This document shows, in pieces, positions 36,276 through 53,487 of a stretch of 64,000 nucleotides of DNA. The notes below the pieces were generated by a model that was not told where the DNA came from, made no database searches, and was given only the letters and a program-made list of their open reading frames with translations. Source of the stretch: Candidatus Thiodiazotropha sp. CDECU1. Lineage in GTDB: Bacteria; Pseudomonadota; Gammaproteobacteria; Chromatiales; Chromatiaceae. The position numbers and the translations under genes are program-made. The DNA is taken from positions 1,612,001-1,676,000 of the forward strand of contig NZ_OY734020.1 of NCBI RefSeq assembly GCF_963455295.1. The letters run 5' to 3'. Position 1 is the first letter of the stretch. Every line of letters starts with the position of its first letter.

Positions 36276-36653
36276 GATCTTTTCCCTGATATGGACCATT
36301 CCTACTCCAAATCCATATGCTGTTTTTTAATATGTATAGCGCTGTGAAACATTGTTCACGTGCTAGCTGTGTAATTATTACAGTGAACCAGGGGTTAAAT
36401 ATGATGCTCCAATATCAAACCCATATACTCCTTGGTTGCAGGATATATCGTCTTCGAAATTTAAAACTTTAGAGTGTGGCAGGCCGAGTTGGCTTGAAAA
36501 AAAACACCTTGTGAATAATGAAATATACTTCAATATCATAAAGCTAATGATATTTTATAAGAATATTATTATGTCGATAGGAGGAATGGCGTTCCGCAAA
36601 ATGCCGGATCCGTCTATCGCGCTGCTGACACTGACTGGGTAATACGCAACATC
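36276..36653. other. Intergenic region, AT-rich
   Basis: 378 bp between divergent chemoreceptor and TlpA-like genes. Strongly AT-rich around 36450-36570. Short frames here lack ribosome sites and similarity. Probable promoter region for both genes. Confidence 0.45.
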
Positions 36654-37184
36654 ATGAGACTTTTAAAAAGATCGGATTTTCTCTATCTCGTACCAGCACT
36701 GATCTTGTTATTGGTTTCAGCTGGCGGGCTTGCGAGAGGTGGATGGCTTGAGACAATGGAGACTGTCCATACTGCACCTGCATTGAATCTTAAGGATCTG
36801 GACGGGGTAAGCTATCGAATAAGTGATCTCAAAGGCAAAACGGTTTTAGTCAACTTTTGGACAACCTGGTGCCCACCCTGCATTGAAGAGATGCCGTCGT
36901 TGATAAGACTGGCAGCGGAGATGAGCCAGGAGGAATTTGTCATCCTCGCCGTCAATGTAGAGGAAAACAAGCGTCGTGTCAGTAACATAGCAAAACGCTT
37001 GAATGTTACTTTCCCTGTCCTTCTTGATCCAAAAAGAGAGGCGGGCAATGCATGGAAGGTTAAGGTCTTTCCCAGCAGTTTTCTGGTGGATGCCCAGGGG
37101 CGCTTACGCCATAAGGCAATTGGTCCGGTTGAGTGGGATAGTGATGAGATCACTTCGATTGTTAACCAATTGATACAGGAGTAG
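36654..37184 (+). CDS. TlpA/ResA-like membrane-anchored thioredoxin
   Basis: 176 residues. The N-terminal hydrophobic stretch (about 10-30) is a signal anchor or uncleaved signal peptide. The thioredoxin fold has C73-P-P-C76 in VNFWTTWCPPCIEEMPSL, and the cis-proline region VKVFPSSFLVD is present. Family members reduce disulfides in the periplasm, including haem-binding CxxC pairs in apocytochromes. Its position about 420 bp upstream of a nine-haem cytochrome gene makes a role in cytochrome maturation attractive, but the distance allows a separate unit. Start codon lacks a good ribosome site. Confidence 0.85.
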   Translation: MRLLKRSDFLYLVPALILLLVSAGGLARGGWLETMETVHTAPALNLKDLDGVSYRISDLKGKTVLVNFWTTWCPPCIEEMPSLIRLAAEMSQEEFVILAVNVEENKRRVSNIAKRLNVTFPVLLDPKREAGNAWKVKVFPSSFLVDAQGRLRHKAIGPVEWDSDEITSIVNQLIQE

Positions 37185-37608
37185 GGTGCGTTTGGCAACT
37201 TCCTATGTTGTGCTGAATAGCTTTGGGATCACTCGCATCGAAAATGAGTGTTGAGGATGTGAAGTGAAATAACGTGTCGATTTCTAAAAAAAAAAAAGAA
37301 TATGAACTGGATCACATATTAATACCTACCTAGGAATAAATTTCCCAGTCATCACTTCATCTTAAGTCACTCTTAATCTTGCTTTGCTACTTTTTGGGAT
37401 AACCTGCCCAAATTAATAAATGCCGTCTCTGTGATGTCGGACAAAAAGTACATAAAAACAATTAGATGGAATGAACACACTAGTCAGTGGCAGCTATTGG
37501 TCGGGGGATCATTGCAAGTAGTGTGCAATAACAACAACAGCACAAGACCGCCAGGATTGACAACCTGCGAGTAATAGAAACCATACAGGCAAGTGGAGGA
37601 GTTTGGTT
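37185..37608. other. Intergenic leader region of the first nine-haem cytochrome gene
   Basis: 424 bp containing the promoter at 37361-37391 and a leader of about 200 nt. An A-run lies at about 37287-37299. The ribosome site GGAGGA is at 37595-37600. No other gene was seen. Confidence 0.55.
37361..37391 (+). promoter_or_regulatory. QseB/PmrA-type box with extended -10, upstream of cytochrome gene 1
   Basis: CTTAAG-TCACT-CTTAAT (37361-37377) fits the HTTAAK-N5-HTTAAK repeat bound by PmrA/QseB-type regulators. Seven bases later comes TGCTACT (37385-37391), an extended -10-like element. The same arrangement occurs at 49570-49600 and 49877-49907. Confidence 0.7.
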
Positions 37609-40600
37609 ATGAAGTGCAATCAATTACTACCCAATAAAACTTATCGCTTCGTAACATACGCGATTTCATTAATCCTCACGTTGGTTGTTGCCACGGGTAA
37701 TACCTGGGCAAGTGATGATGATGAAGAGCGGGAGTACAACAACGAGAGGTACAGCAACGAGAAGTACAGAAGTGAGGAGGATAAGAGCAGCAAGGATGAG
37801 GACAGGGATAATTCTGAAGATGAGGAAAACTCAGAAGGGGGTGGTGGCAACGGCCTGGCGCTGCGTCCTAAGAATACCTTCAACATCATGATGAACTATG
37901 AACTCGGTATGCACTGTACCGGTTTCGAGTTCGCCTATTGTTGCGTGCTGCCTCCTTATAACTCGATCCTGGCCCAGGTTGTGAAGACGCAGCAGAGTGA
38001 TGAGGGCCAGACAGCCTTTGCGCGACTCCTGGAGGGGGACCCCGCTGAAGGTCTCGATGCCCTGGGACGACAGACTGTACTGCGGGATCCCGATCTCGAT
38101 GCAAACGGGGATTTCCAGAAATATGTCCTCGAGTATTGGCATGAAGCACAACCACGGGAAACTCGTCCCAACGTCGTACCCCAGACTTCGACACTGATCA
38201 GCGCCACCGAGGGCAATTCACTGCTGATGTGGAACACCCTCGCCGATTCCGCGGCGGTCAATCCGGACGGTTCGTTGGTGCTCTCGGGCCAAGACGGCAA
38301 CCCGACCTGGAACGGTGTCAGCGGCGCCATGCTGGGTGACGGCGATTTCAATGATCCCACCGACGACTACTGGAATGCGGTCTGGAATCACCTCTATATC
38401 TACGCCGACCTGGAAGGCTCCAATCCCACCGGTTCGACGGCTGAGTCCGATAAGATCCGGCTTGGCGTAACCGGCCACATCGAGTATCCGGACGATTGCG
38501 GTGCCGGTCTGCACCCGATGGGACCGGTCTCCCACCCGGATGGCGTACCGACCAATCCTGCTGTACTTAATGATTGCGGCGGTGCTTCCAAGGGCAATGT
38601 ACTGACCTTCTCCGGCGAGCACGGCACCGTTGTCTATACCCAGATGAAGGTGCTGGAGAACCTGCCGATCACCCTCACCTCGCCACGTATCTGGGAGGCC
38701 CTGGGGCTTCCCCTGACCCCGTTCGAGGACTCCATCAATTTCTTTGCCGACCCGGGCGCGATGTTCGAAGACTCGGTGCGTCCTTTCGTGGCGATGAAGG
38801 CCAGGTTGCGTCACTACGATGAGAATGCCTATGGCGGTATGGGTGATCCGGTGCTGCAGAATGGCGCGCCGGTGGAGGGATTCGGCACCGCGCCCATCGA
38901 TATCCCCAACTGCGAACGTTGCCACTCAGAGGTGGATACCACCAATTCACCCCATAAGAGCGGTGATGAGATCTGGTCCAAGGTTCAGCAGGAATATAAC
39001 TTTTGGATGAGTTACTACAACATAGGGCCAGGCGACTCGGACTGGTATCCGCGCCTCAAGAGTGCCGCCATCAGTATTCTCGGCCTGCATGACAAGAACC
39101 AGGGTACTGGATTCCTGGACAACTACCCGGCCTGCGGCACACCGGCGGAGTGCGATGCACTGGCCGCCGATCTGTCGGCGGAGAACAATCGTCCCGTATT
39201 CGCCCAGAGCACCCGTATCGGTAATACCACCGTGCTCTGCCAGCGTTGCCATGCGGACAATGTCATTGCGGTGGTCAAATCGGCATCGTTCACCGATGAT
39301 GATGGGAGCAGCAAAGTGATTCTGCCCATGTCCGAGGCGATTCATCAGACCCATCGCGGTGTCGGCGAGGGTGGCCCCATCGCCTTCAGCGACAGTCTCG
39401 GCCGCTTCGGCGGTTGCCAGGGCTGTCATCCCGCTCACCGTTCCAATGGCGACATGGCCGGTTATCCTATTACCGAAAGTGGCGACAACTTCTATGCCAG
39501 TACGGATAACCGTCTGGGCGCGGGCGGCTGTTTCGTCGGCCGTGACGTTCACTCCAATCCATTCAAGGATATCGACGGTGCGGGAACCCCTGAACACTTG
39601 ACCGCCATTGGTGAATGGTTGCGGGATAATGTCTCCCGTAATCAGGCGGGTCTTGCGGGCAGCGATCGCGACGACCGGGGTATCTGGTGCACCAATTGCC
39701 ACAACCAGCTGAGCCAGGAGATCTGGAAGCAGGAGAACATGGAGAGCCTGATAGATGGCATACCCGGTCCAGGGGCGAGCAACATACGCGCCCTGGCCTC
39801 ATTGGATGATATTGCCGCTGCAGTTGGGGTAGATACACAGCAGGCCCTGGACTGGCTCGATCCTCGGGATCCCAATGTGTTCCCTGAGGACGGTGCAATT
39901 CGTACTTCGGAAGAGACAATGGCCATCTGGCGCCGTGATCCGGGTCTCTGCGCCTACCTGGGTGGCAGTACCGATCCGGCCATCGACGCCAAGTTGGCCA
40001 CCATTGAGGTGGCTGGTGACGCCACCGCATGTACCACAGGTGCAGCGGCACCAGGTCCCGATTGTGATGGTGATGGTAATGCGGATTTCCAGATCTGCGG
40101 TAGCTTCGATGGGGATGGCGACTTCAGTGTCAGCATCCTGGACTTCTGTACCACCGACGACTGTGTGACCGCTGCCCAGCAGACCCTGAGCGGATCGATG
40201 GCGGCCCCGGTACCCTTCTCGGCGGCAACCGATGGACGCGACCACTGGCTGGCTGCCGGCGAGCCCCATTGCGCCGATTGTCACACCGCGCCCTATGTGG
40301 AGCCGAGTGGTCATCAACCGGGTAATGACCATCCACCCTTCAACTATCCGCGCAAGGCTGGACTGATGCGATACTCCCGCGGTCATCGGGACATCACCTG
40401 TCAGGGTTGTCATGAGTCGATCCATGGCCTCTATCCGGTCGCTCCCCATCTTGAGCAGGGACCGGGTGTGGACGGTGTGGATGCCACCACCTATGCCCAG
40501 GCGGCCTATCTCAACAGCGATGACAGCCACGGTCCGCTGAAGTGTGGTTCATGTCATATGTACGATACCCTGGCCGACAATGTGGATGCCCAGATTCCTG

Positions 40601-41064
40601 TACGGGTCTGTGAGCCGGGTGAAGATGGCGGCAACTGCGATAATGGTGAGGGTATGCATTTCGACGGCAGATCGATCGCCAGCGACTTCGATGCGGCGGT
40701 CAGTTGGGCCCATACTTTCACCGATAATCACGATCCCCGTGAAGACTTCTGTGTCAACTGTCATGAGAACGAAAACGACGAAGTCAGTGCCTCAGAAGGC
40801 GAGTGGCTGGAACATGCCATGAAGGGTCGGGTATCGCGCAAGACCATGGATCAGGTGGAGGAACTTATTTCGGGTGAGGTATTCGGTACCACGGATCCCC
40901 GCAACACCGTCTGTCAGGGTTGCCATGATGATGAATGGCAAGAGGTGGCCTGTAACGGTGAGGATGGTCAGGAGTGGAAGCTCCACCTCTCCGAAGGTCG
41001 GGTGTCGGAAAGCGTTTGGGAGCATGTCTCCCAGGATCGCACCGGCTCCACCTGCGGTTGGTAG
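37609..41064 (+). CDS. Nine-haem c-type cytochrome with LGMHC domain (cytochrome 1)
   Basis: 1151 residues from the ATG at 37609, set by the GGAGGA at 37595-37600; an upstream TTG adds two residues. A signal peptide (about 1-35) is followed by a very acidic low-complexity segment (36-76). Residues about 90-430 form a haem-free domain with LGMHCTGFEFAYCC and LPPYN. Nine CxxCH haem sites start near 435, 544, 603, 694, 888, 931, 979, 1048 and 1102. A calcium-loop-like DCDGDGNAD and DGDGD repeat lies near 820-840. No TM helix follows, so it is probably periplasmic or exported. Likely an electron-transfer protein or oxidoreductase; substrate unknown. A parvulin gene follows by 200 bp, and a paralogue lies 9 kb away. 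Confidence 0.88.
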   Translation: MKCNQLLPNKTYRFVTYAISLILTLVVATGNTWASDDDEEREYNNERYSNEKYRSEEDKSSKDEDRDNSEDEENSEGGGGNGLALRPKNTFNIMMNYELGMHCTGFEFAYCCVLPPYNSILAQVVKTQQSDEGQTAFARLLEGDPAEGLDALGRQTVLRDPDLDANGDFQKYVLEYWHEAQPRETRPNVVPQTSTLISATEGNSLLMWNTLADSAAVNPDGSLVLSGQDGNPTWNGVSGAMLGDGDFNDPTDDYWNAVWNHLYIYADLEGSNPTGSTAESDKIRLGVTGHIEYPDDCGAGLHPMGPVSHPDGVPTNPAVLNDCGGASKGNVLTFSGEHGTVVYTQMKVLENLPITLTSPRIWEALGLPLTPFEDSINFFADPGAMFEDSVRPFVAMKARLRHYDENAYGGMGDPVLQNGAPVEGFGTAPIDIPNCERCHSEVDTTNSPHKSGDEIWSKVQQEYNFWMSYYNIGPGDSDWYPRLKSAAISILGLHDKNQGTGFLDNYPACGTPAECDALAADLSAENNRPVFAQSTRIGNTTVLCQRCHADNVIAVVKSASFTDDDGSSKVILPMSEAIHQTHRGVGEGGPIAFSDSLGRFGGCQGCHPAHRSNGDMAGYPITESGDNFYASTDNRLGAGGCFVGRDVHSNPFKDIDGAGTPEHLTAIGEWLRDNVSRNQAGLAGSDRDDRGIWCTNCHNQLSQEIWKQENMESLIDGIPGPGASNIRALASLDDIAAAVGVDTQQALDWLDPRDPNVFPEDGAIRTSEETMAIWRRDPGLCAYLGGSTDPAIDAKLATIEVAGDATACTTGAAAPGPDCDGDGNADFQICGSFDGDGDFSVSILDFCTTDDCVTAAQQTLSGSMAAPVPFSAATDGRDHWLAAGEPHCADCHTAPYVEPSGHQPGNDHPPFNYPRKAGLMRYSRGHRDITCQGCHESIHGLYPVAPHLEQGPGVDGVDATTYAQAAYLNSDDSHGPLKCGSCHMYDTLADNVDAQIPVRVCEPGEDGGNCDNGEGMHFDGRSIASDFDAAVSWAHTFTDNHDPREDFCVNCHENENDEVSASEGEWLEHAMKGRVSRKTMDQVEELISGEVFGTTDPRNTVCQGCHDDEWQEVACNGEDGQEWKLHLSEGRVSESVWEHVSQDRTGSTCGW

Positions 41065-41264
41065 CAGGCGGAAAGGTCAGCTGTCATATTGGCGGATGGC
41101 AGTTGCATCTGGGAGGGGGGATCTCGGTCTCCCCTCCCAATCGCTTCGCAGTCGTCAGCCATTTTTAGGGTGAGTAGCATCATTCAACGATTATAAATAT
41201 CCAAAGACCTGTCTTATCGCCGATGTAGCATACAGTTGGCTGGAACAGGTCATTCGGAGGCAAA

Positions 41265-42704
41265 ATGAGAATTCCTGTAACACTGATGGCCGCTTGTCTT
41301 CTGGCCACTTCCGCATGGGGAGACACGGCTGCTGAGCCGGCACAATCCGATGCCAATGTCCTGGCCCGGGTTGGCGATCGGATCATCACCTTCTCCCAGC
41401 TGAACACCCAATTGAATAGCACTGCCGTGGTGGGTCTATCCACGCCGGCCCTGGGTACGCCCGAAAGGCGTACCGTCATGTTGACTCTGCTGGACAAGGC
41501 GATCAGCGTCAATCTGCTCTATCTGGATGGTGTCGGCAAGGGCCTGCAGGAGGATCCGGTTTTCAAGCGCGAGCTGCAGACCTACGCCGATGGCATGTTG
41601 GCGGGACTCTATCGCAGACACTATTTGAAGGCGGCCCAGGATATCAGTGATCAAGAGATCGATGGCTATGTAAAAAAGCACTTCGCCAAGGATATTGAGG
41701 TGGACGATACCTTGCGCCCCCTGATCGAGGCAAAGGTAAAAAAGGCAAAATATATCACCCGCAAACAGGGCTTGCGCAAACATCTGCATGCCGGAATGGA
41801 CGTGAAGATACACACCCGTCATCTCGATATCGAAGAGGACAGTCTACGTAGTGATGATCAGGTGATCGCTGAATTCGACGGCATTGCAATGACCTGGGGC
41901 GAGAGCAAAAAGTACCTTGCCACATTGAATAACTCCATCAACATCGAGCGACGCCTGGAGACCCTGAACGGTCTGATAGACAACTATCTGTTGGCGAAAA
42001 AGGGACGTCAAGCGGGGTTGGATCAGGGCCCTGACTTTAAAGCCGCCCTGGCCGAATTCAGCCTCACACGCCTGGTAAATCTACATCGCAAGGCGTTGGC
42101 GCAAGGCATGGAGCCGACCGAGCAGGAGGTACGGGACTATTTTGAAAAGCATAAAAAAGGTATCACCTTCAATGAACACCGCAAGTTGCAGATGGTGGTG
42201 GTGAAGGATGAGCAGACGGCACTGGAGATCATGGAAAAACTGGAAAAGGGAGAACTCACCCTCTACCAGGCGGCGCGCGACCACTCCATCGATCCCCGGG
42301 CAAAACAGACCTTGGGCGACTTCGGCTGGGTAGAGGAGGGCAGCGGTTTTCCAGCCTTGGACGAGGAGGCCTTCGCCCTGGAGATCGGTGAACTGGGAGG
42401 CCCGGTGGAGACCCCGGCCGGTTGGCATATTCTACGTATAACCGACCAAAGGGCATCGAAATATACCGATATCGAAGATCCCGATACCCAGCAGCAGACC
42501 CGTCGGCTGTTGCTCAAGGAGCGCCTCAACGAGTATGTGGTTGGACTGCGCAAACAGGATTATCCAGTGGTGGTCTATGAAGAGAACCTGAACCGGTTGA
42601 TGCAGGAGGAGGCGCAGTGGATCGCCGCCAAGAGCAGGGAGATGGAGCAGCATCCTGAACGCGCCAGGCTCATTCTTGAGGATATGAAGGCGCTGGTGGA
42701 GTAG
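41265..42704 (+). CDS. SurA/PpiC-type peptidyl-prolyl isomerase, periplasmic
   Basis: 479 residues with a signal peptide (about 1-20) and a strong GGAGG ribosome site. Helical N- and C-terminal chaperone-like segments surround a parvulin domain at about 305-400 (EHRKLQMVVVKDE, LGDFGWVEEGSGFPALDEEAF, VETPAGWHILRI). Parvulins catalyse cis-trans isomerisation of prolyl bonds; SurA-like ones aid folding of exported proteins. The gene follows the nine-haem cytochrome in the same direction, so a dedicated folding role for that large secreted cytochrome is a reasonable inference. A second half of the N-terminal region looks like a repeat of the first. Confidence 0.85.
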   Translation: MRIPVTLMAACLLATSAWGDTAAEPAQSDANVLARVGDRIITFSQLNTQLNSTAVVGLSTPALGTPERRTVMLTLLDKAISVNLLYLDGVGKGLQEDPVFKRELQTYADGMLAGLYRRHYLKAAQDISDQEIDGYVKKHFAKDIEVDDTLRPLIEAKVKKAKYITRKQGLRKHLHAGMDVKIHTRHLDIEEDSLRSDDQVIAEFDGIAMTWGESKKYLATLNNSINIERRLETLNGLIDNYLLAKKGRQAGLDQGPDFKAALAEFSLTRLVNLHRKALAQGMEPTEQEVRDYFEKHKKGITFNEHRKLQMVVVKDEQTALEIMEKLEKGELTLYQAARDHSIDPRAKQTLGDFGWVEEGSGFPALDEEAFALEIGELGGPVETPAGWHILRITDQRASKYTDIEDPDTQQQTRRLLLKERLNEYVVGLRKQDYPVVVYEENLNRLMQEEAQWIAAKSREMEQHPERARLILEDMKALVE

Positions 42705-42753
42705 TTTGATGTGTCCATACTAAACCTATCCTCAAAGGTTTAAACTCTGTTTA

Positions 42754-43539
42754 TTATGTCCGCGGCACATAAGCGACCTCTTTTAATTCGTTGATGATGT
42801 TCCCTCTTGCTAACTCATTCAAAGCCTTTTTTAGGTAACTCCTCACATTCGTATCGCAATGAGGAAGGGCAATGTTTGGCGATATCTCTTTTAGAAGCAA
42901 GAAGATCGCTAGTGAGTAGCTATGTTCTAGCTCGGTAAGATAGCCCCCTCCGGATGTTTGCCAGCCAGAGACGCCTGCGCTTGAATATTGTTGAAAATTA
43001 AAGGCTGCATTGGCTTGGAAAATACCAAATCCCAAAAAAGTTGCACCGATGTCTGTTGCGAATTCCCAGTTTTCCCAGCCGCCGGGTGGTGGTTCCGGTG
43101 CGGTTCCGGTGAGGTAGTGGGAAAGCTCATGGGCGAAGGTCGCAACCATTTGGGTTGGATTAACCGTGATTTTCGGATTGTAGGTAATCGTGGCCTCATT
43201 CTTTTCATTTACTGAAAAGGTGCCTAGGGGGTTTTGTTCTACATTTTTTACAATCAACGTGGGAGCAACATGAAGATTGGGATCTTTCTCTTGCGCCTGT
43301 AGTGTGACGGGCCAATTCTCCATACCAGCCAGTTTCATCACCTGCTGCAATGTTGCCTGGGCAGCAGATTCCTTAGAATCGACCGTGGCAGGAAAATACT
43401 CCTTAGTAGGCAGGACCAGCTGTACTTCCTGGTAAAAATCATCCCCACCAAAATGGGTCAGTAGCCATTTGAAACACTCTATTTGGAACAGGGTATCCTG
43501 TTCGGAAAGTAATGGTTTCTTTCGAAAAAGACTCCACAT
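42754..43539 (-). CDS. Putative zinc metallopeptidase (HExxH)
   Basis: 261 residues. The motif H137-E-L-S-H141 in MVATFAHELSHYL, followed by E159 and D163 in WEFATDIGATFLG, fits a gluzincin-like active site (HExxH plus downstream acidic ligand). No signal peptide is apparent; the N-terminus MWSLFRKKPLL is basic. No characterised family recognised. It follows, by 23 bp, a short membrane-protein frame that contains an in-frame stop. Activity is inferred from the motif only. Confidence 0.7.
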   Translation of the reverse strand: MWSLFRKKPLLSEQDTLFQIECFKWLLTHFGGDDFYQEVQLVLPTKEYFPATVDSKESAAQATLQQVMKLAGMENWPVTLQAQEKDPNLHVAPTLIVKNVEQNPLGTFSVNEKNEATITYNPKITVNPTQMVATFAHELSHYLTGTAPEPPPGGWENWEFATDIGATFLGFGIFQANAAFNFQQYSSAGVSGWQTSGGGYLTELEHSYSLAIFLLLKEISPNIALPHCDTNVRSYLKKALNELARGNIINELKEVAYVPRT

Positions 43540-43562
43540 GGTAAATTTTCCTACTAACAGAT

Positions 43563-43766
43563 TTAGATTACTGTGATTAGTAGATATACCGCTAATCCCA
43601 CTAACAACATCACTGCCAGGGCACCAATGGCAGCACTAAAAATGCTGTCTTATTCTATGAATCCATTCGGAAAGACAACCTTAACAATGCGATTCCCCAC
43701 TGATATTGAGAGTTCAGGTATTGCACCAAAAATAAACTGTGCTAAGACTTCTGTATAAATACTCAT
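43563..43766 (-). pseudogene. Small membrane-protein gene interrupted by an in-frame TAA
   Basis: From ATG at 43766 the frame encodes 38 residues (MSIYTEVLAQFIFGAIPELS and on to FPNGFIE) and meets TAA at 43650-43652. The same frame then continues for 28 codons encoding DSIFSAAIGALAVMLLVGLA and YLLITVI, a typical TM helix, before a second stop at 43563. The two parts read as one small protein with a C-terminal anchor. Readthrough, a nonsense mutation or a sequencing error are all possible. It lies directly upstream of the metallopeptidase gene. Confidence 0.5.
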
Positions 43767-43886
43767 CCTTGAAAACTGCTGAGAGGCTAAACAGACCTTT
43801 TTTTTTAGAACATTTAGCCATAAACCGCAAGCAGGCCAGGGGGGGGATGGGCCATGCATTAGGCATGCGGTGGGTTGATCACTTAT

Positions 43887-44303
43887 TCAGCGACTGTCGC
43901 TGAGGATGCGCGGCCAACGCTCATAGGCGGCGTCTTCCATCTCCGGGGTGATGGTGACCACATAGATGCGCCGCTCCTGTTCCCAGCGGGCCACCAGGCC
44001 CTGGATCCATTTCCCCGGGGTGACATCGAACCAGTGGCTGGCGCCCTCCATGTCCACCTCCATGAACTGGCTGACCAGCAGCTTTACCGGAATCGGCCGC
44101 CAGCGGTCCCAGCGACCGCCGTAGATGGCATCGAGCCTCGCCCAACCCCCCAGCGGCAGCTTGCCGAGCTGATGTTTGCGCCGGCCCCAGGGCAGCAGGT
44201 CGGCGCCGCCGTGCCTGTTTTTAACCGGCAGGCAGGCCCCGGCGGTGGGGAATTTGGTACGGAACTCCTGGCCGTTGAGGGTGTAGTGGACGGCGGTGCA
44301 CAT
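43887..44303 (-). CDS. Short SRAP-like (HMCES/YedK-related) protein
   Basis: 138 residues. It begins Met-Cys, and SRAP proteins use Cys2 to crosslink abasic sites in single-stranded DNA. Later blocks LLPWGRRKH, KLPLGGWARLDAI and RPIPVKLLVSQFMEVD resemble the SRAP order (RWGLIPSW, NARAE, R-C-L-I-P-A-x-G-F-Y-E-W), although the classical residues are partly changed and the protein is shorter than YedK (about 220). I regard the family call as tentative. It is last in a lexA-dinB-SRAP-like row on the minus strand, which supports a DNA-damage role. Confidence 0.55.
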   Translation of the reverse strand: MCTAVHYTLNGQEFRTKFPTAGACLPVKNRHGGADLLPWGRRKHQLGKLPLGGWARLDAIYGGRWDRWRPIPVKLLVSQFMEVDMEGASHWFDVTPGKWIQGLVARWEQERRIYVVTITPEMEDAAYERWPRILSDSR

Positions 44304-44335
44304 GGCTTAGCCCGCTATGCGTGCTAAGCGAACGC

Positions 44336-44370
44336 CAAAACTCAAAACTAAAAACTCAAAACTCATAACT
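44336..44370. repeat. AACTCAAAACT-type repeat (half copy) at the dinB-like 3' end
   Basis: Direct copies of ACTCAAA/ACTAAAA units. The last codons (SSYEF) and TGA stop of the polymerase gene lie within it. Related full elements occur at 45651-45768 and 60902-61023. Confidence 0.7.
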
Positions 44371-45639
44371 ACTGACTTTTGCGGGTTGTTGCAGGATGGT
44401 TTCCCTATGCCCAAACGGCTTCCACGCCGGGGCGATGACATTGGGCATTTTCGAGCGGTTCAGCAGGCGCACGGGGGCCAGGGCGAATTCACCGTAGCGC
44501 TGGTTGATATGGTCCATGGCCTGGTTGAGGCGGTCCTGGCGCTGCTGGTTCGGCTGCAGGAAGTCGAACTGGTAGTCGGCGTACCTGGGATCCAGGGCGG
44601 TGATCTGCACCTGGTGGCAGCCCTGGCCGGCCCAGTGGTGGTCGAGGAAGTCCTGGCACATGGCGACGATCTCCGGGCCGTGGTCGGTGGGCGGGTTGCA
44701 ACGGTATTTGCGGGCGAGATAGCCCGCGTCGATACGCACCCCGATGTAGAAGTGGCTGGCGCGGAAATGGTGCAGGCGCAGCCGGGTGGCCACCTTTTCC
44801 GCCATATGCAGGAGGAAGGTTTCGATCACCTCCCGCCGGCGGGTGTCAGGGGGCATGACCTTGCCATGGCCGATGGATTTCGGCGCATCGACCTCACTGT
44901 GCACCGGGTCGGGATCGAGTCCCTGGGTCATCAGCCAGATACGCCGCCCCGGGTTGCCGAAGCGGCGTCCGATCTCGCCGATGGGCAGGCGGCACATGTC
45001 GCCACAGGTATAGACGCCCCGTTCCGCCAGGTAGCGGCCGATGCCCTTGGCGATACCGCACAACTCGGTGACCGGCACCTTGGCGAGGGTCTGCTGCGCG
45101 GTACCGGGAGGGATAATGGTCAGGCCGTCGGGTTTGTTGAGTTTGGCGGCGTACTTGGCGCTGGTCTTGTCGCCGCTGACCCCCACCGAGCAGAGCACCC
45201 CCCCGGAGGCCTCCAGCACCGTCTGCTTGACCTGCCGGGCGATCCGTTGCGGGGTACCGAGCAGGCGTTGGCAATGGGTGATGTCGAGGAAGGCCTCGTC
45301 CACGGAGAAGATCTCCATGTCCGGGGTGATGCTGGAGAGTGCCTCCATGATGCGGGTGGAGACCTGGGCATAGCGTTCCGGATGGGCCGGCACCTGGACA
45401 AACCCGGGACAGATCCGCTGGGCCTCTTTCAGACGCATGCCGGTATGCACGCCATAGGCGCGGGCCTCATAGGAACAGGTAATGATGCAGGTCCCCTGGG
45501 CGCCATTGGTGATACCGATGGGGCGTCCCTGCAGCTCCGGGTGGTCGATCTGTTCCACGCTGCAGAAGAAGGCGTTCATGTCCACCAGGATCATGGCGCG
45601 GGACCAGTGGGCTTTGGGGTGGGTGTCGTCGATATACAT
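44356..45639 (-). CDS. dinB: Y-family DNA polymerase (DinB/Pol IV-like)
   Basis: 427 residues. The catalytic carboxylates are visible in MILVDMNAFFCSVEQ (about 16-30) and SVDEAFLDITHC (near 114). The fingers/palm, HhH thumb region (ELCGIAKGIGRYLAERGV) and little-finger domain follow in order. It extends lesion-blocked primers at low fidelity during SOS. Ahead of the first Asp there are 15 extra residues (MYIDDTHPKAHWSRA); an internal ATG could be the start, but no ribosome site favours either. The C-terminus runs into a repeat. The gene is downstream of a LexA-like repressor with SOS-type operators, separated by a palindromic repeat. Confidence 0.88.
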   Translation of the reverse strand: MYIDDTHPKAHWSRAMILVDMNAFFCSVEQIDHPELQGRPIGITNGAQGTCIITCSYEARAYGVHTGMRLKEAQRICPGFVQVPAHPERYAQVSTRIMEALSSITPDMEIFSVDEAFLDITHCQRLLGTPQRIARQVKQTVLEASGGVLCSVGVSGDKTSAKYAAKLNKPDGLTIIPPGTAQQTLAKVPVTELCGIAKGIGRYLAERGVYTCGDMCRLPIGEIGRRFGNPGRRIWLMTQGLDPDPVHSEVDAPKSIGHGKVMPPDTRRREVIETFLLHMAEKVATRLRLHHFRASHFYIGVRIDAGYLARKYRCNPPTDHGPEIVAMCQDFLDHHWAGQGCHQVQITALDPRYADYQFDFLQPNQQRQDRLNQAMDHINQRYGEFALAPVRLLNRSKMPNVIAPAWKPFGHRETILQQPAKVSSYEF

Positions 45640-45650
45640 GATTGCTCAAG

Positions 45651-45768
45651 AGTTTTGAGTTATGAGTTTTTAGTTGCGGTGTTCGCTTCGCTCACGTTGG
45701 ATAAAAAACGTGTGCGTAGCACACTCATCAACTCAAAACTCAAAACTCAAAACTCATAACTAAAAACT
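45651..45768. repeat. Palindromic repeat element of the AACTCAAAACT family (copy 1)
   Basis: The left end (45651-45675, AGTTTTGAGTTATGAGTTTT and on) and right end (45730-45768, AACTCAAAACTCAAAACT and on) are inverted repeats. The middle holds GTTCGCTTCGCTCACG and CGTGTGCGTAGCACAC stems. The layout matches copy 2 at 60902-61023. It lies between lexA-like and dinB-like genes. Confidence 0.75.
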
Positions 45769-45774
45769 TCCTAT

Positions 45775-46371
45775 TCACTTGTAGCGTCTCAGCTGACACA
45801 CCAACACCCCCTGGATCCTCACCCGCTTTGCCGCATAGATCATGGGGGGGATGCCGGGGTTCTCGGCGATCAGCTTGATACGGCCGCTCTTGAGGCGTCT
45901 GAGGCGCTTCAGAGTGGCCTCCTCGTCGTCGATCAGGGCCACCACGATGGCGCCGTCGTCGGCGGTGTCGCAGCGTTCGATCACCGCCAGGTCGCCATCG
46001 AGGATGCCGGCGTCGATCATGGAGTCCCCCTTCACCTGCAGGGCGTAGCGGTTGGGGCCGAACAGGTCGTTCAGCTCGAGGCGGTCCTGACCGGCGATGG
46101 CCTCGATGGGCTGGCCCGCTGCGATGCGGCCCAGTAGGGGAAGGCTGGTTTTCGACAGCGCCTCCTCGTCCACCAACTCGATGCCGCGCTTACGCCCGGT
46201 GATCAGGCGTATCGCGCCCGCCTCGGCCAGGGCCTGTACGTGGCGATGGGCGGTGCCTTTGGAAGTGATACCTATGCCTTCGGCAATCTCAATCAGCGAG
46301 GGGGCGTATCCTCGCCTCTTCAGGTAGCGGCGGATGAAGCTCAGGGTGCGGTCCTGGGTAGGGGTTAGCAT
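45775..46371 (-). CDS. LexA-like SOS repressor with divergent DNA-binding domain
   Basis: 198 residues. The C-terminal S24 peptidase domain has the A85-G86 cleavage site (LLGRIAAGQPIEA), nucleophile S117 (VKGDSMIDAG) and K155 (EATLKRL), so RecA-stimulated self-cleavage is expected. The winged-helix N-terminus (ILSF..., PSLIEIAEGIGITSKGTAHRHVQALAEAGAIRLI) departs from the classical gammaproteobacterial LexA recognition helix. Two inverted GTTC-N7-GTTC sites lie just upstream, matching the alphaproteobacterial-type LexA box rather than CTGT-N8-ACAG. It is first in the row with dinB-like and SRAP-like genes, so this is probably a second LexA for a private damage cassette. Confidence 0.88.
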   Translation of the reverse strand: MLTPTQDRTLSFIRRYLKRRGYAPSLIEIAEGIGITSKGTAHRHVQALAEAGAIRLITGRKRGIELVDEEALSKTSLPLLGRIAAGQPIEAIAGQDRLELNDLFGPNRYALQVKGDSMIDAGILDGDLAVIERCDTADDGAIVVALIDDEEATLKRLRRLKSGRIKLIAENPGIPPMIYAAKRVRIQGVLVCQLRRYK

Positions 46372-46375
46372 ATTG

Positions 46376-46428
46376 AGTTCTCCAAATGTTCTTCATAGTG
46401 ACATAGATTGTAGAACATTAGGAGAACT
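46376..46428. promoter_or_regulatory. Pair of inverted GTTC-N7-GTTC operators upstream of lexA-like gene
   Basis: AGTTCTCCAAATGTTCT (46376-46392) and AGAACATTAGGAGAACT (46412-46428) are inverted 17-bp copies with one mismatch, separated by 19 bp. Each contains GTTC-N7-GTTC. They lie within 60 bp upstream of the lexA-like start codon, as expected for autorepression. Confidence 0.75.
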
Positions 46429-46542
46429 GTTGATAGGGGGGGATTGTGAATTGAAAATTCAAAATTAAACTAAAGTGTTTTGTAATTGGTCGAGAAATTC
46501 TCTATATTCGCATGATAAATAAAAGATATTTTGGGGATAGCC

Positions 46543-46896
46543 ATGCCTAACCGGGTGCTGCAGCGTCTTTCTCTTGTTCTCGCTATCGTGATGTTGAGTG
46601 TGTGGGGAGTGATCCTGATCGTCGATCCCCACCTGATTGCGGGTTATTTCAGTGTTGAGCCGGTCAATCAGGCCTTCGCGGGGATGATGGGGGCCGCCCT
46701 GCTGGGATTGGCCTTCATTTCACTGGCCGGCGTTACCCGTTGGTTGGAAACACCACGGGCGCTGGGCGTCGCCATGGCCATTTTGGTGGTGGAGACCGCC
46801 TACCTGATGCTGGGTTCCGGTGACATGCTGGTGACCCTGCCCACCACTATCAGTCTGGTAACCGCTGCCGCTGTGGCCTTCTTTTTGCTTGTCTAA
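46543..46896 (+). CDS. Small four-TM hypothetical membrane protein
   Basis: 117 residues from the ATG at 46543 (GGGGA eight bases upstream; an upstream TTG is less likely). Four hydrophobic segments at about 10-30, 41-65, 75-92 and 95-115 with short loops. The second half begins ALGVAMAILVVETAYLMLG. No family recognised; DUF4345-type small membrane proteins look broadly similar. It is divergent from lexA. Confidence 0.65.
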   Translation: MPNRVLQRLSLVLAIVMLSVWGVILIVDPHLIAGYFSVEPVNQAFAGMMGAALLGLAFISLAGVTRWLETPRALGVAMAILVVETAYLMLGSGDMLVTLPTTISLVTAAAVAFFLLV

Positions 46897-47234
46897 ATGC
46901 CATATCTGTCTGCTTTCTATATTAAAATCAATAACAAACATTACCTGGCATGGTAGCTGTCATGCCCTGATGCAGGCATTGGGGAATTGAATTCGTTAAA
47001 TATGTCTAAAATCGAAACAATAAACTTCTGGTATTGGGTGAAATTGGTATATAATTCCCAATTATAGAGTCCAGCTAGGCTGATAAATCAGATATTGATT
47101 CTAAAATCTATAGTTAATCAGCCTCAGCAGAAACGGAGCAGCGCGAACAGGAAAACAACCTGCTGTGGCGAGGTGTTCGTGGAATCGCTTACACCTGAAT
47201 GGCCTGGCATACAAAATTGTTGCGTGGGGGATCT
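46897..47234. other. Intergenic region upstream of the QseB-like regulator
   Basis: 338 bp, AT-rich at 46980-47120. It should hold the promoter of the two-component operon; TATAAT-like bases occur near 47050. No HTTAAK-N5-HTTAAK site of the type found near the cytochrome genes was seen. No gene recognised. Confidence 0.45.
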
Positions 47235-47927
47235 ATGACAAGTGGAATAAATTTGCTGCTTGTAGAAGACGATGAAATGTTAGGTGATGGTATCCAGACC
47301 GTACTCGCACGGCGTGGATTAGCCATTGACTGGGTGCGCGACGGTCTCAGTGCCATGCAGTCCTTGAAGAGTGTCCGCTATGATGTCCTGCTGTTGGATC
47401 TGAACATTCCGTGGCTCTCCGGCTTGGAGGTCTTGGCGCGTCTGCGAGCGGAGGGAAATCAGATACCCGTGCTTGTGTTGACGGCGCGCTCCGAGGTTGT
47501 CGACCGTGTCCAGGCACTGGACGGCGGTGCTGATGACTATGTGGTCAAACCATTCGATATCGAGGAGTTGTGTGCACGTATTCGCGCGCTGCACCGTCGC
47601 CACAGCGGTCTGGAAGAAGAGATTTTGCGTCACGGTGATTTGGTGCTGGATCCTTCGGCGCATACGGTAACCATTCAAAATGATGAGGTGTCACTGTCGG
47701 TGAAGGAGTTCGATATTCTCCAGAGTCTGATGGAAAACATGGGACGGGTCATGTCGCGCAGGAAGCTGAGCGAAAAGGTCTACTGTCTGGATGACGATGT
47801 TGAAAGCAATGCCATCGAGGTCCATATCCATCATCTACGAAAAAAATTGGGAGAACATCCGATTCGCACCGTGAGGGGAGTGGGGTACGTCATAGAAAAA
47901 CCCATGGGTGGATCAGCAAGACGCTAG
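47235..47927 (+). CDS. OmpR-family response regulator, QseB/PmrA-like
   Basis: 230 residues from the ATG at 47235, preceded by GTGGGGGATCT; an in-frame start 12 codons earlier is weaker. The receiver has EDDE at 11-14, phosphoacceptor D55 (VLLLDLNIPWLSG) and KPFDIEEL. The winged-helix domain has SLSVKEFDILQSLMENMGRVMSRRKL and SNAIEVHIHHLRKKLG, the QseB/PmrA/TctD-like pattern. The kinase gene follows after 305 bp. Three candidate binding sites of the QseB/PmrA type lie before both nine-haem cytochrome genes and at the end of the kinase gene, so it probably activates cytochrome expression. Confidence 0.9.
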   Translation: MTSGINLLLVEDDEMLGDGIQTVLARRGLAIDWVRDGLSAMQSLKSVRYDVLLLDLNIPWLSGLEVLARLRAEGNQIPVLVLTARSEVVDRVQALDGGADDYVVKPFDIEELCARIRALHRRHSGLEEEILRHGDLVLDPSAHTVTIQNDEVSLSVKEFDILQSLMENMGRVMSRRKLSEKVYCLDDDVESNAIEVHIHHLRKKLGEHPIRTVRGVGYVIEKPMGGSARR

Positions 47928-48232
47928 TTTATCGTAGAACTTCAGAAAGCTTCGTGTTCCTGTCCATAAGCGATTTGGTTAACACCAGGTCTCTGGTCTG
48001 ATAGCCATTCCTGATTCGATATCTCAGCAATGTATCTTACTGTGTTGAGCATGGATGTATCGAAAACTCGATTTTTCCTTGTTTTTAGTTCCTGACCTGT
48101 GCTGATTGTTATGTTGCAGATGGTGATTGGAAGCGGTTTCAGGTTCAATTTTGAATAAGCAGGTAGCGAATCGACTGGATAGGAATAGATGGATTCAGTG
48201 TCCTGAAGTATCACCGTGCAAAGGAGTTATAG
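47928..48232. other. Intergenic region between regulator and kinase genes
   Basis: 305 bp, longer than normal for a two-component operon. The AAGGAG ribosome site for the kinase lies near 48221. No terminator, box or gene was seen. Confidence 0.4.
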
Positions 48233-49585
48233 ATGATCGTGCGTTCCCTAAGCATGCGCCTGCTGCTGATGTTGCTGATTTCGACATTGCTGTTATGGGG
48301 CACGATCCTCTATTTTACCTGGTGGCGAACCAGCAGTGAAATCAACCAGGTCTACAATGCCGAATTGGCATTGGTAGGCCAGTTGTTGGCGGTTGCAACT
48401 GAACACGAATCGGAAGAGTTCGACCTGGATGAGTATCAAACCGACTTAAATGAATCCAAGTATACATTTCCTTTGCTGTTTCAGGTTTGGTCCCATGAAG
48501 ACAGGTTGATGATACGTGGCCCTGAAGCACCTGATTTCCCATTGTCCAGTTCTATTCTTGATGGTTACACAGACAGCGATATAAATGGTCAGATGTGGCG
48601 TGTCTATACCATGAACCTGACAAATCATGATTTCCGGGTACAGGTTGCCCGCAGCCATCTGACAAGCCATCAATTGGTGCGTGATTTCGTTGTGGATGTC
48701 ATCAGACCGCTGTTGATCGCCCTACCTTTGTCGGGAATTCTCTGGCTTATCGTGCATCAGGGTTTGCAACCGGTGCGGGAGGTGGCACGTCTGATCAGAG
48801 AACGCGATTATGCTCATCTCAATCCCATTCAGCCAAGCCATGTACCCAAAGAGATTGCTGGAGTGGTGGATGAGCTGAATAGACTATTGGCAAGATTGAA
48901 ACAATCCATCGATCGTAATAGCCGCTTTACAGCGGATGTGGCGCATGAGTTACGCACGCCGATCGCGGGTATGCTCGTACAGCTTCAGTCGGGCACAAAC
49001 GAATCTGAGGAGGAAAAGGGCAGGTCGGGTTTCTCACAGGTCAAGAAAGGATTGAATCGTCTCAACCATGTGATAAATCAATTACTGGTGCTGGCCTCCA
49101 TCGAACCGGAAAAGATTCGTCATGGTTTTAACGAACTGGATCTTGAGGCATTGGCGCAGGAGACCCTGGCGGACATTTCACCGCAGGCATTGAGTAAAGA
49201 TATCGAAATGGCACTGGAGTGCAGTGAATCGGTCACCATGCAAGGTAATCGGGAGTTGATTGGAATATTACTCAACAATCTTGTCAGCAACGCCATCAAA
49301 TTCACTCCCAACAAGAGTAGTGTCACGATCAAAATTGCCCGTGTAGGGGACGGTGTACTTCTGATTGTGGAAGATCAGGGACAGGGCATACCGGATGATA
49401 AGAAAAAATGGGTGTTCGAACGCCTCAATCGTCTGCCCGGTGAGACCGAAGCGGGCGCAGGATTAGGCCTGTCCATCGTTAAGGAGATCTGTGAGATCCA
49501 TCAAGGATCCATCACCCTCAGCGATCCTGAACAGGGTAGTGGCTTAATTGTGAATTTGTTCTTTCCTTGTTTAAGAAAATCTTAA
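48233..49585 (+). CDS. QseC-like sensor histidine kinase
   Basis: 450 residues. TM segments at about 8-30 and 155-176 bracket a periplasmic domain of about 120 residues. HAMP-like linker (176-230) precedes H238 in RFTADVAHELRTPIAGM; the HATPase has NNLVSNAIKFTP, EDQGQGIPDD and GLGLSIVKEICEIH. AAGGAG ribosome site upstream. It is partner to the QseB-like regulator. The signal is unknown; QseC/PmrB-like kinases respond to metals, pH or small molecules, and a redox or mineral signal would suit the cytochrome context. The last codons overlap a candidate promoter. Confidence 0.9.
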   Translation: MIVRSLSMRLLLMLLISTLLLWGTILYFTWWRTSSEINQVYNAELALVGQLLAVATEHESEEFDLDEYQTDLNESKYTFPLLFQVWSHEDRLMIRGPEAPDFPLSSSILDGYTDSDINGQMWRVYTMNLTNHDFRVQVARSHLTSHQLVRDFVVDVIRPLLIALPLSGILWLIVHQGLQPVREVARLIRERDYAHLNPIQPSHVPKEIAGVVDELNRLLARLKQSIDRNSRFTADVAHELRTPIAGMLVQLQSGTNESEEEKGRSGFSQVKKGLNRLNHVINQLLVLASIEPEKIRHGFNELDLEALAQETLADISPQALSKDIEMALECSESVTMQGNRELIGILLNNLVSNAIKFTPNKSSVTIKIARVGDGVLLIVEDQGQGIPDDKKKWVFERLNRLPGETEAGAGLGLSIVKEICEIHQGSITLSDPEQGSGLIVNLFFPCLRKS

Positions 49586-49600
49586 TTATCGCCTGCTAAT
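49570..49600 (+). promoter_or_regulatory. QseB/PmrA-type box with extended -10, at the end of the kinase gene
   Basis: TTTAAG-AAAAT-CTTAAT (49570-49586) followed after seven bases by TGCTAAT (49594-49600). Same architecture as the sites before both cytochrome genes. It overlaps the kinase stop codon and points towards a terminator at 49785-49818. Confidence 0.65.
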
Positions 49601-49606
49601 TTACCT

Positions 49607-49818
49607 ATTAGTAAGACGATTTCTCTGATTTTTATAGACAAAAAACGGCCAGGATCGGAGAGAAATTATCCAATTGATAATCGTTAGATTCGCACATGGC
49701 GGGAACTTTAACAAACCCTGAATGGGCAATATAACGGCTTGTATATTACGAATAATCATAGACGATTGGTCGATTTACCCTTGCCCGCGTGTCCTCCCCA
49801 CATGCGGGTTTTTTTTTA
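49607..49818 (+). ncRNA. Candidate small RNA between kinase gene and cytochrome gene 2
   Basis: Inferred transcript of about 210 nt from the promoter at 49570-49600 to the terminator at 49785-49818. There is no convincing coding frame inside. The segment GAGAAATTATC near 49662 recurs near 49841. It could equally be just the 3' untranslated region of the two-component genes. Confidence 0.35.
49785..49818 (+). terminator. Rho-independent terminator
   Basis: CCCGCGTGT and ACATGCGGG (one G-T wobble) pair around a seven-base loop and are followed by nine T residues. It ends the two-component transcript or a small RNA, ahead of the promoter of cytochrome gene 2. Confidence 0.8.
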
Positions 49819-49876
49819 TCTGAATTTGCGACCTGGCGCAGAGAAATTATCTGAATGAGAAGCACATCCTGCCTGC

Positions 49877-49907
49877 CTTAAGCAAACCTTAATATAATCT
49901 TGCTAAT
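49877..49907 (+). promoter_or_regulatory. QseB/PmrA-type box with extended -10, upstream of cytochrome gene 2
   Basis: CTTAAG-CAAAC-CTTAAT (49877-49893), seven bases, then TGCTAAT (49901-49907). About 100 nt of leader follow to the cytochrome start codon. Matches the site at 37361-37391 in box, spacing and -10. Confidence 0.75.
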
Positions 49908-50010
49908 TTGATTTCGATAGCCACCAGTCCGCAATGGAAAGTAGGGAAACACCTACAGCTACAGTCTGGTATTAGCCATATTCACAGCTATACCTGGGGA
50001 GATCTTTTCA

Positions 50011-53000
50011 ATGGGTACCTGTACAAAACGACCATCCAGCAGAGCTATGCATCTGCTGCTATGCACTGCTTTGATTTTCGGCTTTTCAAGCACTCTTCTT
50101 GCCGCGAAGAGACCCTCCGTTTTCGATATCGATCGGGCAAAATGGGATTCCAGGAAAGATCAGCTTGTAGTTAAGGGAGGAGGTGCCACTAACCAGGATG
50201 TGAGCATATTGAATGCAGCGACAGGGGAGGTACTTGGTACAGTCGCCTCAGGTCGTGATTGGCGATTCAAGCTAACGATCACCGATGATGCTCAGGTTCC
50301 CTGTCGGGTATCAGCTGTTCGCACATCGGACGGAACGACAGTTGAGAAGGATGTTAGCCGAGCGCCAAGCAACTGTGATGATGGATCTGGTGACACCCCA
50401 AATGAGCCGCCCACAGCGCAAGCCAATGGCCCGTATAGCGCCATTACCGGTTCTGCCATCGATTTCAGTAGCGCCGGCTCCAGTGATACGGATGGCACTA
50501 TTGACTCCTATACCTGGAACTTCGGTGACGGTAATGAAAGTAGTGACCCCAACCCCAGCCATACTTATGCGGATCCAGGCACCTATACGGTAACCTTGAC
50601 GGTTACGGATAATGATGGCGACAGCGATAGTGACAGCACGACAGCCAGCGTTGAAGATGATCAACAACCGGGTAATGGGCCACCGACAGCGAACGCCAAT
50701 GGTCCGTATAGCGCCATTACCGGTTCTGCCATCGATTTCAGTAGCGCCGGCTCCAGTGATACGGATGGCACTATTGCCTCCTATGCCTGGAACTTCGGTG
50801 ACGGCAATGATAGTAGTGACCCCAACCCCAGCCATACTTATGCGGATCCAGGCATCTATACGGTAACCTTGACGGTTACGGATAATGATGGCGATAGCGA
50901 CAGTGACAGCGCAACCGCTACCGTTGAAGATGATCAACAACCGGGCAATGAGCCACCGACAGCGAACGCCAATGGTCCTTATGACGGTATGGCCGGTGAG
51001 GCTGTGAGTTTCACCAGCGCGGGTTCGAACGATCCTGAAAATTCTGCACTGACTTATACATGGGATTTCGGAGATGGGAATGGCAGTACCGAGGCCAATC
51101 CAACCCACACCTATGATGCCCCTGATGTGTACGATGTATCCCTGACTGTAGCGGATGCCGATGGGCTCTCAGACAGCGATTCAACGACCGCGACGATCCA
51201 GGACGATCAGCCGCCACCGCCAGTATCGGGTGTGTCAATCAACTCCACCAGTCAGAATGGTGTACCGACAGGTGCGGCTGTGTCAGAGCTGCAGCTGATC
51301 AATGGTAACGACTATAAGGTGTTTGCGGTGAATGACCTGGGTATGCATTGCGGAGATTTCGATACCCGTATTTCAAGTATCCTGCCACCCTTCAATGTGC
51401 TGCATGCGACGGTTATACAGCGTGGTCAGGAGCCCAATATCCTGGGTCGTGATGATGGCGCCGAAGTCTACTATTCAGCGGCATCGAATCCGGATGATCC
51501 TATTTTGACGGGCGAAAACTCCGCGGGTTCCGGCCCAGTCTATTCCAGCAGAAACCCGATTACAGGTGAGGTATTCAAGACCAATTTCTGGGATGTGGCG
51601 CGAGAGGCCTATGCACCATTCTATCCGGCTGAACCATTCTTTGCGGATGGTGTGCTTTCACTTTTCTATCCGGATGGACCAGTGGCAGACATTCTCGATG
51701 TGGGTCTTCCGATGCCGAATGTGGAGCTCTTTTACCTGACAAGTCCCGGGACATTGGAGGCAGATCAACAAGACATGCCTGGTCGTGATGGTCCATATCT
51801 CGTGAATGCTGAACAGAAGTTCGAAGCCTATGTTGTGGATCAGCCCTTCTTCATCAATCCGGCATTTCAATTTGGCTATGTCAAAGAGGGTGTGAACTGG
51901 TTTGAAGCACCCGGTATTCCCGTGACGGCATTTGACGATGACGGCAGAGAGAATCCATGGCCGCTTTATCGTGTCCAGGCAAAGGTTGCTGGGAATGTGG
52001 TTGCCTCTGTGGATACGGTCGTCCCGATCTCCGGTGAAGCCAACTGTGGCGCCTGTCATGGTGCTGCAGAGGATGGTGGCAATGGTACAGCAACCGGGCA
52101 GCTTGCCTATATCGCTAGCGCTTTCGACGATGATCCGCAATATGGCGTTGTACCTCTGGAGGTCAGCAAGGAGTATGCGGCAGACTTGAATCTGGTGCGT
52201 TTGCATGACTTGAAGCACAGTGATAAATATCCCGAGGGTTTTGGCACGCTAGAAGAGAATACGCCTGTCGTCTGTCAGCAGTGTCACTATACGCCGGCCC
52301 TCGATCTTGCCCAGCTTGGACCGCTGGACGGGGATGTAGGCACCACCGCGAATGGTCGTAGACAGGGCAACGTCAAGAGTATGTCAAACGTGATGCATAG
52401 CCATCATGGCAGTGTGACAGACGGGGCAGGTAACAAGCTCTTCCCTGATATGCCTGCAGCGATCAAGGATGAGTTTGGTATCGTCGCCAATCATGAAGAA
52501 CGCCGACAGGTCTTGGAAGAGACCTGTTATCAGTGTCATCCAGGTCGTCGTACCGACTGTCTGCGCGGCGCGATGTCCAACGGCGGCATGCTTTGTCAGG
52601 ATTGCCATGGTGATATGGAGCAGGTGGGTGACGATTTCACCCGTGGTGTATCACCGACAACCCCAGGTGCGTTTGAACTGGGAGGTGATTTCTACACCAA
52701 TGCAGATCAGCCTCGTGTGCCTTGGGCCAATGAGCCGGGTTGCGGTTCCTGCCACACCGGTGATGCCATGAGTAACCTGGCCGGCACATCCGGAACCGTG
52801 GTCAATCCTGCCGATGCGGACGGTAATGAGGATAATATCCGTCTCTTCCAGGCCTTTCGCTCGGGTGATGCCAAGGCTACCCCGATTGTGCCGACCAATA
52901 AGCGTTTTGCAGAGAATGTCATCGAAGCCGACAATCCTGCAGTGTCGGGTCCAAACGATCCACGCATTGGCAATCCCATGTTGTATCGTGTCAGCACCGG

Positions 53001-53433: not shown

Positions 53434-53448
53434 TTGGTGGTTACACTT

Positions 53449-53480: not shown

Positions 53481-53487
53481 ATCCCAA

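Follow-up and report, generated by a model that had tools for sequence, protein, structure and literature searches.

The PmrA box, the DNA element bound by the response regulator PmrA, has the consensus (C/T)TTAA(G/T)-N5-(C/T)TTAA(G/T), as quoted in PMC10729948, and is given for Salmonella as CTTAAG, five bases, and XTTAAT (PMC3973317). At the PmrA-activated pbgP promoter, the -35 element lies at the first half of the box, and PmrA makes base-specific contacts through N188, N196, and R210 and touches bases through T187, V192, and H195 (PMC4660055). In Salmonella, ferric iron is a signal for the sensor kinase PmrB (PMC4074579). A closely similar arrangement is present in a stretch of 64,000 nucleotides from Candidatus Thiodiazotropha sp. 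CDECU1 (contig NZ_OY734020.1, positions 1,612,001 to 1,676,000; hereafter the window), in which three promoter-like elements of the same architecture (sites 1, 2, and 3) accompany a PmrA/QseB-type two-component system and two nine-haem cytochrome genes, here called cytA and cytB. The reading favored here, with a probability of about 0.8, is that sites 1 and 3 are driven by the regulator acting as an activator, that site 2 is the relic of a deleted cytB, and that the intact cytB was acquired as a replacement.

Promoter architecture and its conservation

Direct reading of the sequence confirms the three sites at 37361, 49570, and 49877, all on the plus strand and of like architecture, as the initial annotation had described them. 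Site 1 (37361–37393), before cytA, consists of CTTAAG-N5-CTTAAT followed after seven bases by TGCTAC, within the extended -10 element TGC-TACTTT; site 2 (49570–49602) consists of TTTAAG-N5-CTTAAT, N7, and TGCTAA; and site 3 (49877–49909), before the intact cytB, consists of CTTAAG-N5-CTTAAT, N7, and TGCTAA, the extended -10 element of both being TGC-TAATTT. The PmrA-type consensus is matched at all three, and sites 1 and 3 agree exactly with the Salmonella box as given in PMC3973317. The annotation had ascribed HTTAAK-N5-HTTAAK to PmrA and QseB alike, which is right for the PmrA consensus but not for the E. coli QseB consensus, given differently in PMC10729948.

The exact 28-base pattern TTAAG-N5-CTTAAT-N7-TGCTA occurs three times in the whole genome of 4,463,383 bases, always inside the window, and the genome-wide search that had been proposed as a check therefore finds it confined to this locus rather than scattered at random. 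With up to two mismatches, six places are found (the three exact ones and three with two mismatches), compared with three for the reversed control, and within the window even three mismatches return sites 1–3 alone, against a shuffle mean of 0.32 and with none of 100 shuffles reaching three. The looser NTTAAK-N5-NTTAAK-N7-KGNTA is found at five places in the genome versus one in the control. The box alone is mildly enriched genome-wide, with 33 rows representing 23 distinct places against 18 control rows, and for this reason it carries little weight, and the box joined to the -10 element much. In the window, the box alone occurs at four places (seven rows; shuffle mean 0.06), the fourth of which, at 18380, is intergenic and lacks TGNTA at N7. 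What is rare is the combination of box, N7, and TGNTA.

The same combination recurs throughout the genus. Among 22 genomes, the pattern TTAAK-N6-TTAAK-N7-TGNTA gave 46 matches, at least one in every genome, versus two for the reversed pattern used as a control; together with the window counts, this upholds the earlier judgment that a chance origin is very unlikely. All but one of the 46 matches belong to four recurring target classes or to relic promoters. The regulator is present in all 22 genomes (E 1e-70), the kinase in 20 (E 1e-90), kinase-linked cytB in 19, and cytA in 11 (E 1e-100), and the promoter precedes every one of the 19 kinase-linked cytB and 11 cytA genes, the latter assigned by coordinates. 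The other 16 matches comprise five relic promoters with no intact cytB after them (site 2, the corresponding promoter in G149, and a single one in G007, in G147, and in G148), five before a small secreted protein, five before a family of 154–179 residues, and one without a recurring target (G150:C4:300). The initial annotation had tied the architecture to the two-component system and to both cytochromes, a link that is supported at the sequence level across the genus.

A wider scan of named genomes for cytB, covering the best 80 of 108 matching stretches, yielded 78 loci, of which L100–L105 match the PKD part only. Among these best 80, the closest relative, 98% identical, is in the gamma proteobacterium symbiont of Ctena orbiculata, and cytB is 69–86% identical in many Candidatus Thiodiazotropha contigs; these matches place the genome among the Thiodiazotropha-type sulfur oxidizers that live as symbionts in the gills of lucinid clams. 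A regulator and kinase like those of the window lie just upstream at 17 of the 78 loci, and NTTAAK-N5-CTTAAK-N7-TGNTA stands between the end of the kinase gene and cytB at every one of these, including L053 and L065, whose regulators are only 56–60% identical; this count overlaps with that of the 22 genomes, to whose genus most of these loci belong. The remaining 61 loci include many short contigs; in the DNA scanned there, the TGNTA or GGNTA architecture is found in L052, L076 (whose cytB frame does not become open until well past the box), and L044 (GGCTA), and with one mismatch in L077. Second cytB copies away from the regulator (L032, L033, and L046) have no such site in any of the three stretches of locus DNA scanned. 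Outside the genus, the cytA of G024, which is 82% identical, is preceded by the box with N7-GGCTA.

Alignment of 32 sites less than 85% identical, picked solely by box, gap, and KGNTA, reveals conserved columns beyond the search pattern. The last base of the -10 hexamer TANNTT is T in 31 of the 32, the sole exception being the G150 site without a recurring target; the base before it is T in 24, and a purine lies eight bases after the hexamer in 30. Because these columns lie outside the pattern used for selection, they point to a real promoter, with TGN-TANNTT as its extended -10 element and transcription probably beginning at the purine eight bases further on. The spacing is likewise fixed: of 66 box contexts in loci not picked for TGNTA, 16 have TGNTANNNT at gap 7, and at most two have it at any other gap. 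In the window promoters the first half-site of the box occupies the -35 position, at a fixed distance from the -10 element, as in PmrA-type activated promoters; a scan of 36500–54500 for consensus -35/-10 promoters listed none of the three sites.

Beyond the cytochromes, the promoter also precedes the gene for a small protein that appears to be secreted, in G147, G153, G157, G159, and G160 (L171, L179, L187, L230, and L232), and the one member scanned had no Pfam match. The 154–179-residue family (MFNYLEKKSEK...; L180, L181, L182, and L024), with the promoter in G154, G155, and G156, adjoins an efflux-pump-like gene on the opposite strand and also gave no Pfam match for the single member scanned. 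A relative of this family in the present genome, 36–38% identical, has the box with N7-CGCTAGGATT. A tetrahaem cytochrome operon near G000:C1:2472561 (L255), beside an NHL-repeat-like gene, is preceded by a CTTAAG-N5-CTTAAG box that adjoins the inverted repeat GGGA..TCCCA; the box is kept, by eye, in 12 of 12 close orthologues but without N7-TGNTA, and the operon was excluded from the regulon. Its box perhaps serves another regulator or another binding mode.

The regulator and its paralogue

The response regulator (47235–47927, plus strand, 230 aa) belongs to the OmpR family and consists of a receiver and a winged-helix domain that align without gaps to PmrA/BasR, and the histidine kinase (48233–49585, plus strand, 450 aa) contains 2CSK_N, HisKA, and HATPase_c domains, the arrangement of the QseC/PmrB type. 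Domain and family models therefore agree with the QseB/QseC-like genes annotated earlier at 47235–49585. The best curated matches of the regulator are QseB at 234 bits (cut-off 345) and PmrA at 223 bits (cut-off 330), and the kinase scores 233 bits for QseC (cut-off 475), 190 for a heavy-metal sensor subfamily, and 175 for PmrB (cut-off 314). As all scores are far below the cut-offs, the pair forms a branch separate from QseBC and PmrAB, and by the NCBIfam equivalog score test the regulator is a relative within the QseB/PmrA family and not an orthologue.

The PmrA contact residues N188, N196, R210, T187, V192, and H195 correspond to N192, H200, R214, S191, V196, and H199 in this regulator. Four of the six are identical (N188, V192, H195, and R210), while T187 is replaced by serine and N196 by histidine. 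With four of these contacts kept and the promoter geometry resembling that of PmrA targets, direct activation of the cytochrome promoters by the regulator is likely. Sites 1 and 3 would then be activator-dependent (class II) promoters of the sigma-70 type, at which the phosphorylated regulator would sit as a dimer over the -35 position, its subunits arranged head to tail on the TTAAG/TTAAT half-sites, and bring RNA polymerase to the extended -10 element. Transcription would start at about 37401 for cytA and 49917 for cytB, both A, giving predicted leaders of 208 and 94 nt, respectively.

Several observations weigh against this reading. The architecture was found in none of the 21 more distant cytA loci (46–50% identical) whose DNA was scanned, which limits the link between promoter and cytA to close relatives. 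L052 and L076 have the architecture before cytB, yet no regulator relative was found there at E 1e-50, both being metagenome-assembled genomes that may be incomplete, and G147 and G148 have no kinase at E 1e-90 but retain both the regulator and the box before cytA. Common descent links many of the sites, and the counts are accordingly not independent observations; at positions of the site 2 type, the box is partly coding sequence. Finally, a paralogous regulator at G000:2584829–2585482 (L285/L137), 51% identical to that of the window, has the same six contact letters, SNVHHR, and is apparently followed by a kinase-like gene; a TTTAAG-N5-ATTAAG-N7-GGTTA site of its own lies upstream, which suggests that the paralogue may regulate itself and that cross-talk is possible.

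The promoters could be truly activator-dependent with the paralogue as their main regulator, or with both regulators sharing them. Among 14 OmpR-family matches in the genome (E 1e-25, the window regulator included), the paralogue is alone in sharing SNVHHR, and it has an upstream box with the N7 spacing. This reading is nonetheless unlikely, as it is the window regulator that adjoins the cytB promoter in all 19 genomes with kinase-linked cytB, that is present in all 22 genus genomes, and that persists in G147 and G148, where the cytA box remains but the kinase and the linked cytB are gone.

An acidic stretch (ESEE, ELEE, and similar) is conserved in the periplasmic part of the kinase, at the same position in the aligned kinases; in ColS, the sensing of iron and zinc depends on an ExxE motif (PMC4074579). 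Since the paralogous divergent kinase L218 likewise has an acidic stretch, this feature does not settle the signal. EYRDD, a motif associated with iron sensing, occurred in none of the papers listed by a literature search and was given no part in the argument.

Site 2 and the probable replacement of cytB

The kinase stop codon (49583–49585) falls within the second half-site of site 2, so that the last codons of the gene form part of the box. In relatives the kinase also ends inside the box, and cytB starts mostly about 120–150 bases after the box start; the stop lies in the box in the 19 genus loci read (of 20), at box+13 in 15 and at box+2 in four. Site 2 is followed by about 280 additional bases both here and in the conspecific genome. 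These end in a segment (49764–49816) that is 85% identical over 52 bases (E 6e-8) to 53432–53480 just after cytB; besides L028, 11 other relatives have cytB 3' ends that match it at 84–93%, the match in L030 reaching into the last cytB codons. The segment and the cytB 3' flank bear the same type of terminator-like hairpin with a T run, at 49783–49817 and at 53449–53480. Because the remnant matches the cytB 3' flank and shares its hairpin type, the probable history is the deletion of an older cytB copy, of which there survive the terminator and the promoter, site 2, which is probably the ancestral one. A transcript from site 2, with a predicted start at 49610 (A), would run into the surviving terminator of the lost copy after about 208 nt, and site 2 probably drives neither cytochrome. 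The initial annotation had all three promoters serve the cytochromes; for site 2 this does not hold, given the hairpin that precedes cytB and the 3' remnant of the deleted copy. G007 and G147/G148 have also lost cytB and kept the promoter, with remnants that differ; the cytB-end remnants read VECHENEINHD and, degraded, VECYEDFEVS, then a stop.

Alternatively, the transcript of about 208 nt could itself function as a small RNA, or site 2 could act as a decoy that titrates the regulator, in either case kept by selection after the older cytB was lost. Its promoter and terminator are both intact, and similar units of promoter, remnant, and terminator are found in G007, G147, and G148. The inner sequences, however, are dissimilar between lineages; the remnant is 96.8% identical between this genome and L028, against 95.7–97.1% for other non-coding DNA nearby, so that it does not evolve more slowly; and the predicted fold of the RNA is ordinary, hardly more stable than its composition would give (z -1.68). 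The inner-sequence, divergence, and folding comparisons thus lend no support to a small RNA, and selection for such a role is quite unlikely. An Rfam scan of the window found a single tRNA and nothing else. In G147 and G148 (L220 and L222) the identity extends over the relic as well, being 100% from about 200 bases before the relic promoter for at least 2 kb, and because it spans the whole 2 kb it is uninformative about selection on the remnant. Further upstream, the two differ by several per cent or more (661 of 693 positions identical in the regulator gene), and the identical stretch reads as a recent exchange.

Returning to site 2 as a relic, the intact cytB has a history distinct from that of the adjacent kinase. 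The kinase tree puts this genome beside G096, G118, and G007, whereas its neighbors in the cytB tree are G153, G157, and G160. With constraint groups named after quick trees had been seen, a cytB tree constrained to place this genome with G096 and G118 was rejected (p-AU 0.0002), as was a kinase tree constrained to place it with G153, G157, and G160 (p-AU 1.7e-68). The leader after site 3 resembles, by eye, those of L029 and L030, loci on that side of the cytB tree. The tree conflict and the leader resemblance suggest that cytB came from another lineage; it looks like a horizontally acquired replacement, which probably brought its own copy of the promoter.

Direction of control, neighboring features, and known systems

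The regulator might instead repress, blocking the polymerase at a promoter whose extended -10 element needs no activator. The box does cover the -35 position, and blocking by PmrA has been proposed at the arn promoter (PMC10729948), but a fixed spacing between box and -10 element is needed for activation and not for mere blocking, consensus -35/-10 promoters were not listed at any of the three sites, and the geometry is like the activated arrangement at pbgP (PMC4660055), which makes repression very unlikely. That the pattern reflects chance similarity or coding constraint is practically negligible: the box alone is mildly enriched and site 2 overlaps coding sequence, but the genus-wide counts, the intergenic position of sites 1 and 3, and the conservation of the -10 element and start purine outside the search pattern speak against it.

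The cytA gene (37609–41064, plus strand, 1151 aa) encodes a c-type cytochrome and lies between a TlpA/ResA-like thioredoxin gene upstream of site 1 (36654–37184, plus strand) and a PpiC-type peptidyl-prolyl isomerase gene (41265–42704, plus strand), both of which are neighbors in the cytA loci read that far. A palindrome, TTGGG-N8-CCCAA (37394–37411), lies across the predicted start of cytA transcription and is conserved before several other cytA genes, though not before that of G024 (L110); it is possibly the operator of a second regulator. Next to cytB (50011–53433, plus strand, 1140 aa), the minus strand at 53488–58752 carries three genes for what we take to be PhnD-like periplasmic binding proteins, flanking a gene that is presumably of the GGDEF/EAL type. 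A relative of the first PhnD-like gene faces the relic promoters in G007 and G148, as judged by eye.

Each cytochrome contains nine CXXCH motifs, in accordance with the initial annotation, and an N terminus that looks signal-like by eye; cytB has three PKD domains in addition. MtrC/OmcA-type cytochromes are alike in having many CXXCH motifs and in the weak match to PF22113 (MtrC/MtrF outer-membrane cytochromes), but the two proteins differ from that type in the scores for this family, 28.9 and 24.3 bits against the Pfam cut-off of 30, in their nine haems, and in the PKD domains of cytB. The haem part of cytB was modelled from 46 sequences, with L062 and L069 left out of 47 non-redundant stretches, at a mean pLDDT of 75; Foldseek found nothing like this model in the PDB at E 0.001, and the cytB sequence matched PDB entries in its PKD part only. 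With no solved structure matching the modelled part of cytB and PF22113 below its cut-off for both proteins, a role at the outer surface is a mere suggestion.

On a broader view, which is tentative and rather doubtful as a whole, this symbiont genus would have a two-component regulon devoted to large and possibly extracellular multihaem cytochromes, switched by an external signal (perhaps ferric iron or redox state); cytochrome cassettes would carry their own copies of the promoter and plug into the resident regulator, with the binding site doubling as the end of the kinase gene. A literature search joining Thiodiazotropha with "multiheme cytochrome", the one spelling combined with that name, returned nothing; a broader lucinid/multiheme search had no title on lucinids among the matches listed; and the literature on multiheme cytochromes and two-component systems had none on this regulon, judged by title and abstract start. 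The cytochromes named in passages of two lucinid symbiont papers (PMC12172469 and PMC6712303) are other ones. For a class of multihaem cytochromes in chemosynthetic symbionts whose role is obscure, the locus offers a regulator, a promoter, and start sites that can be put to the test, and the strict promoter rule may be used to find the remaining members of the regulon. The relic suggests how a regulated cytochrome gene can be lost and replaced while the regulatory link is kept.

Compared with known systems, the promoters are most like the PmrA-activated pbgP/arn promoters, which share the two TTAA half-sites, the five bases between them, and the position of the box over the -35 element; in the E. 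coli arn oligonucleotide shown in PMC10729948, TAAAAT lies, by eye, as far from the box as TANNTT does here. They differ from these promoters in the extra TG of the extended -10 element and in their targets, which include multihaem cytochromes and not lipid A modification genes. The regulator and kinase likewise find their best curated matches in QseBC and PmrAB, and the system is a new PmrA-type regulon that employs no new mechanism.

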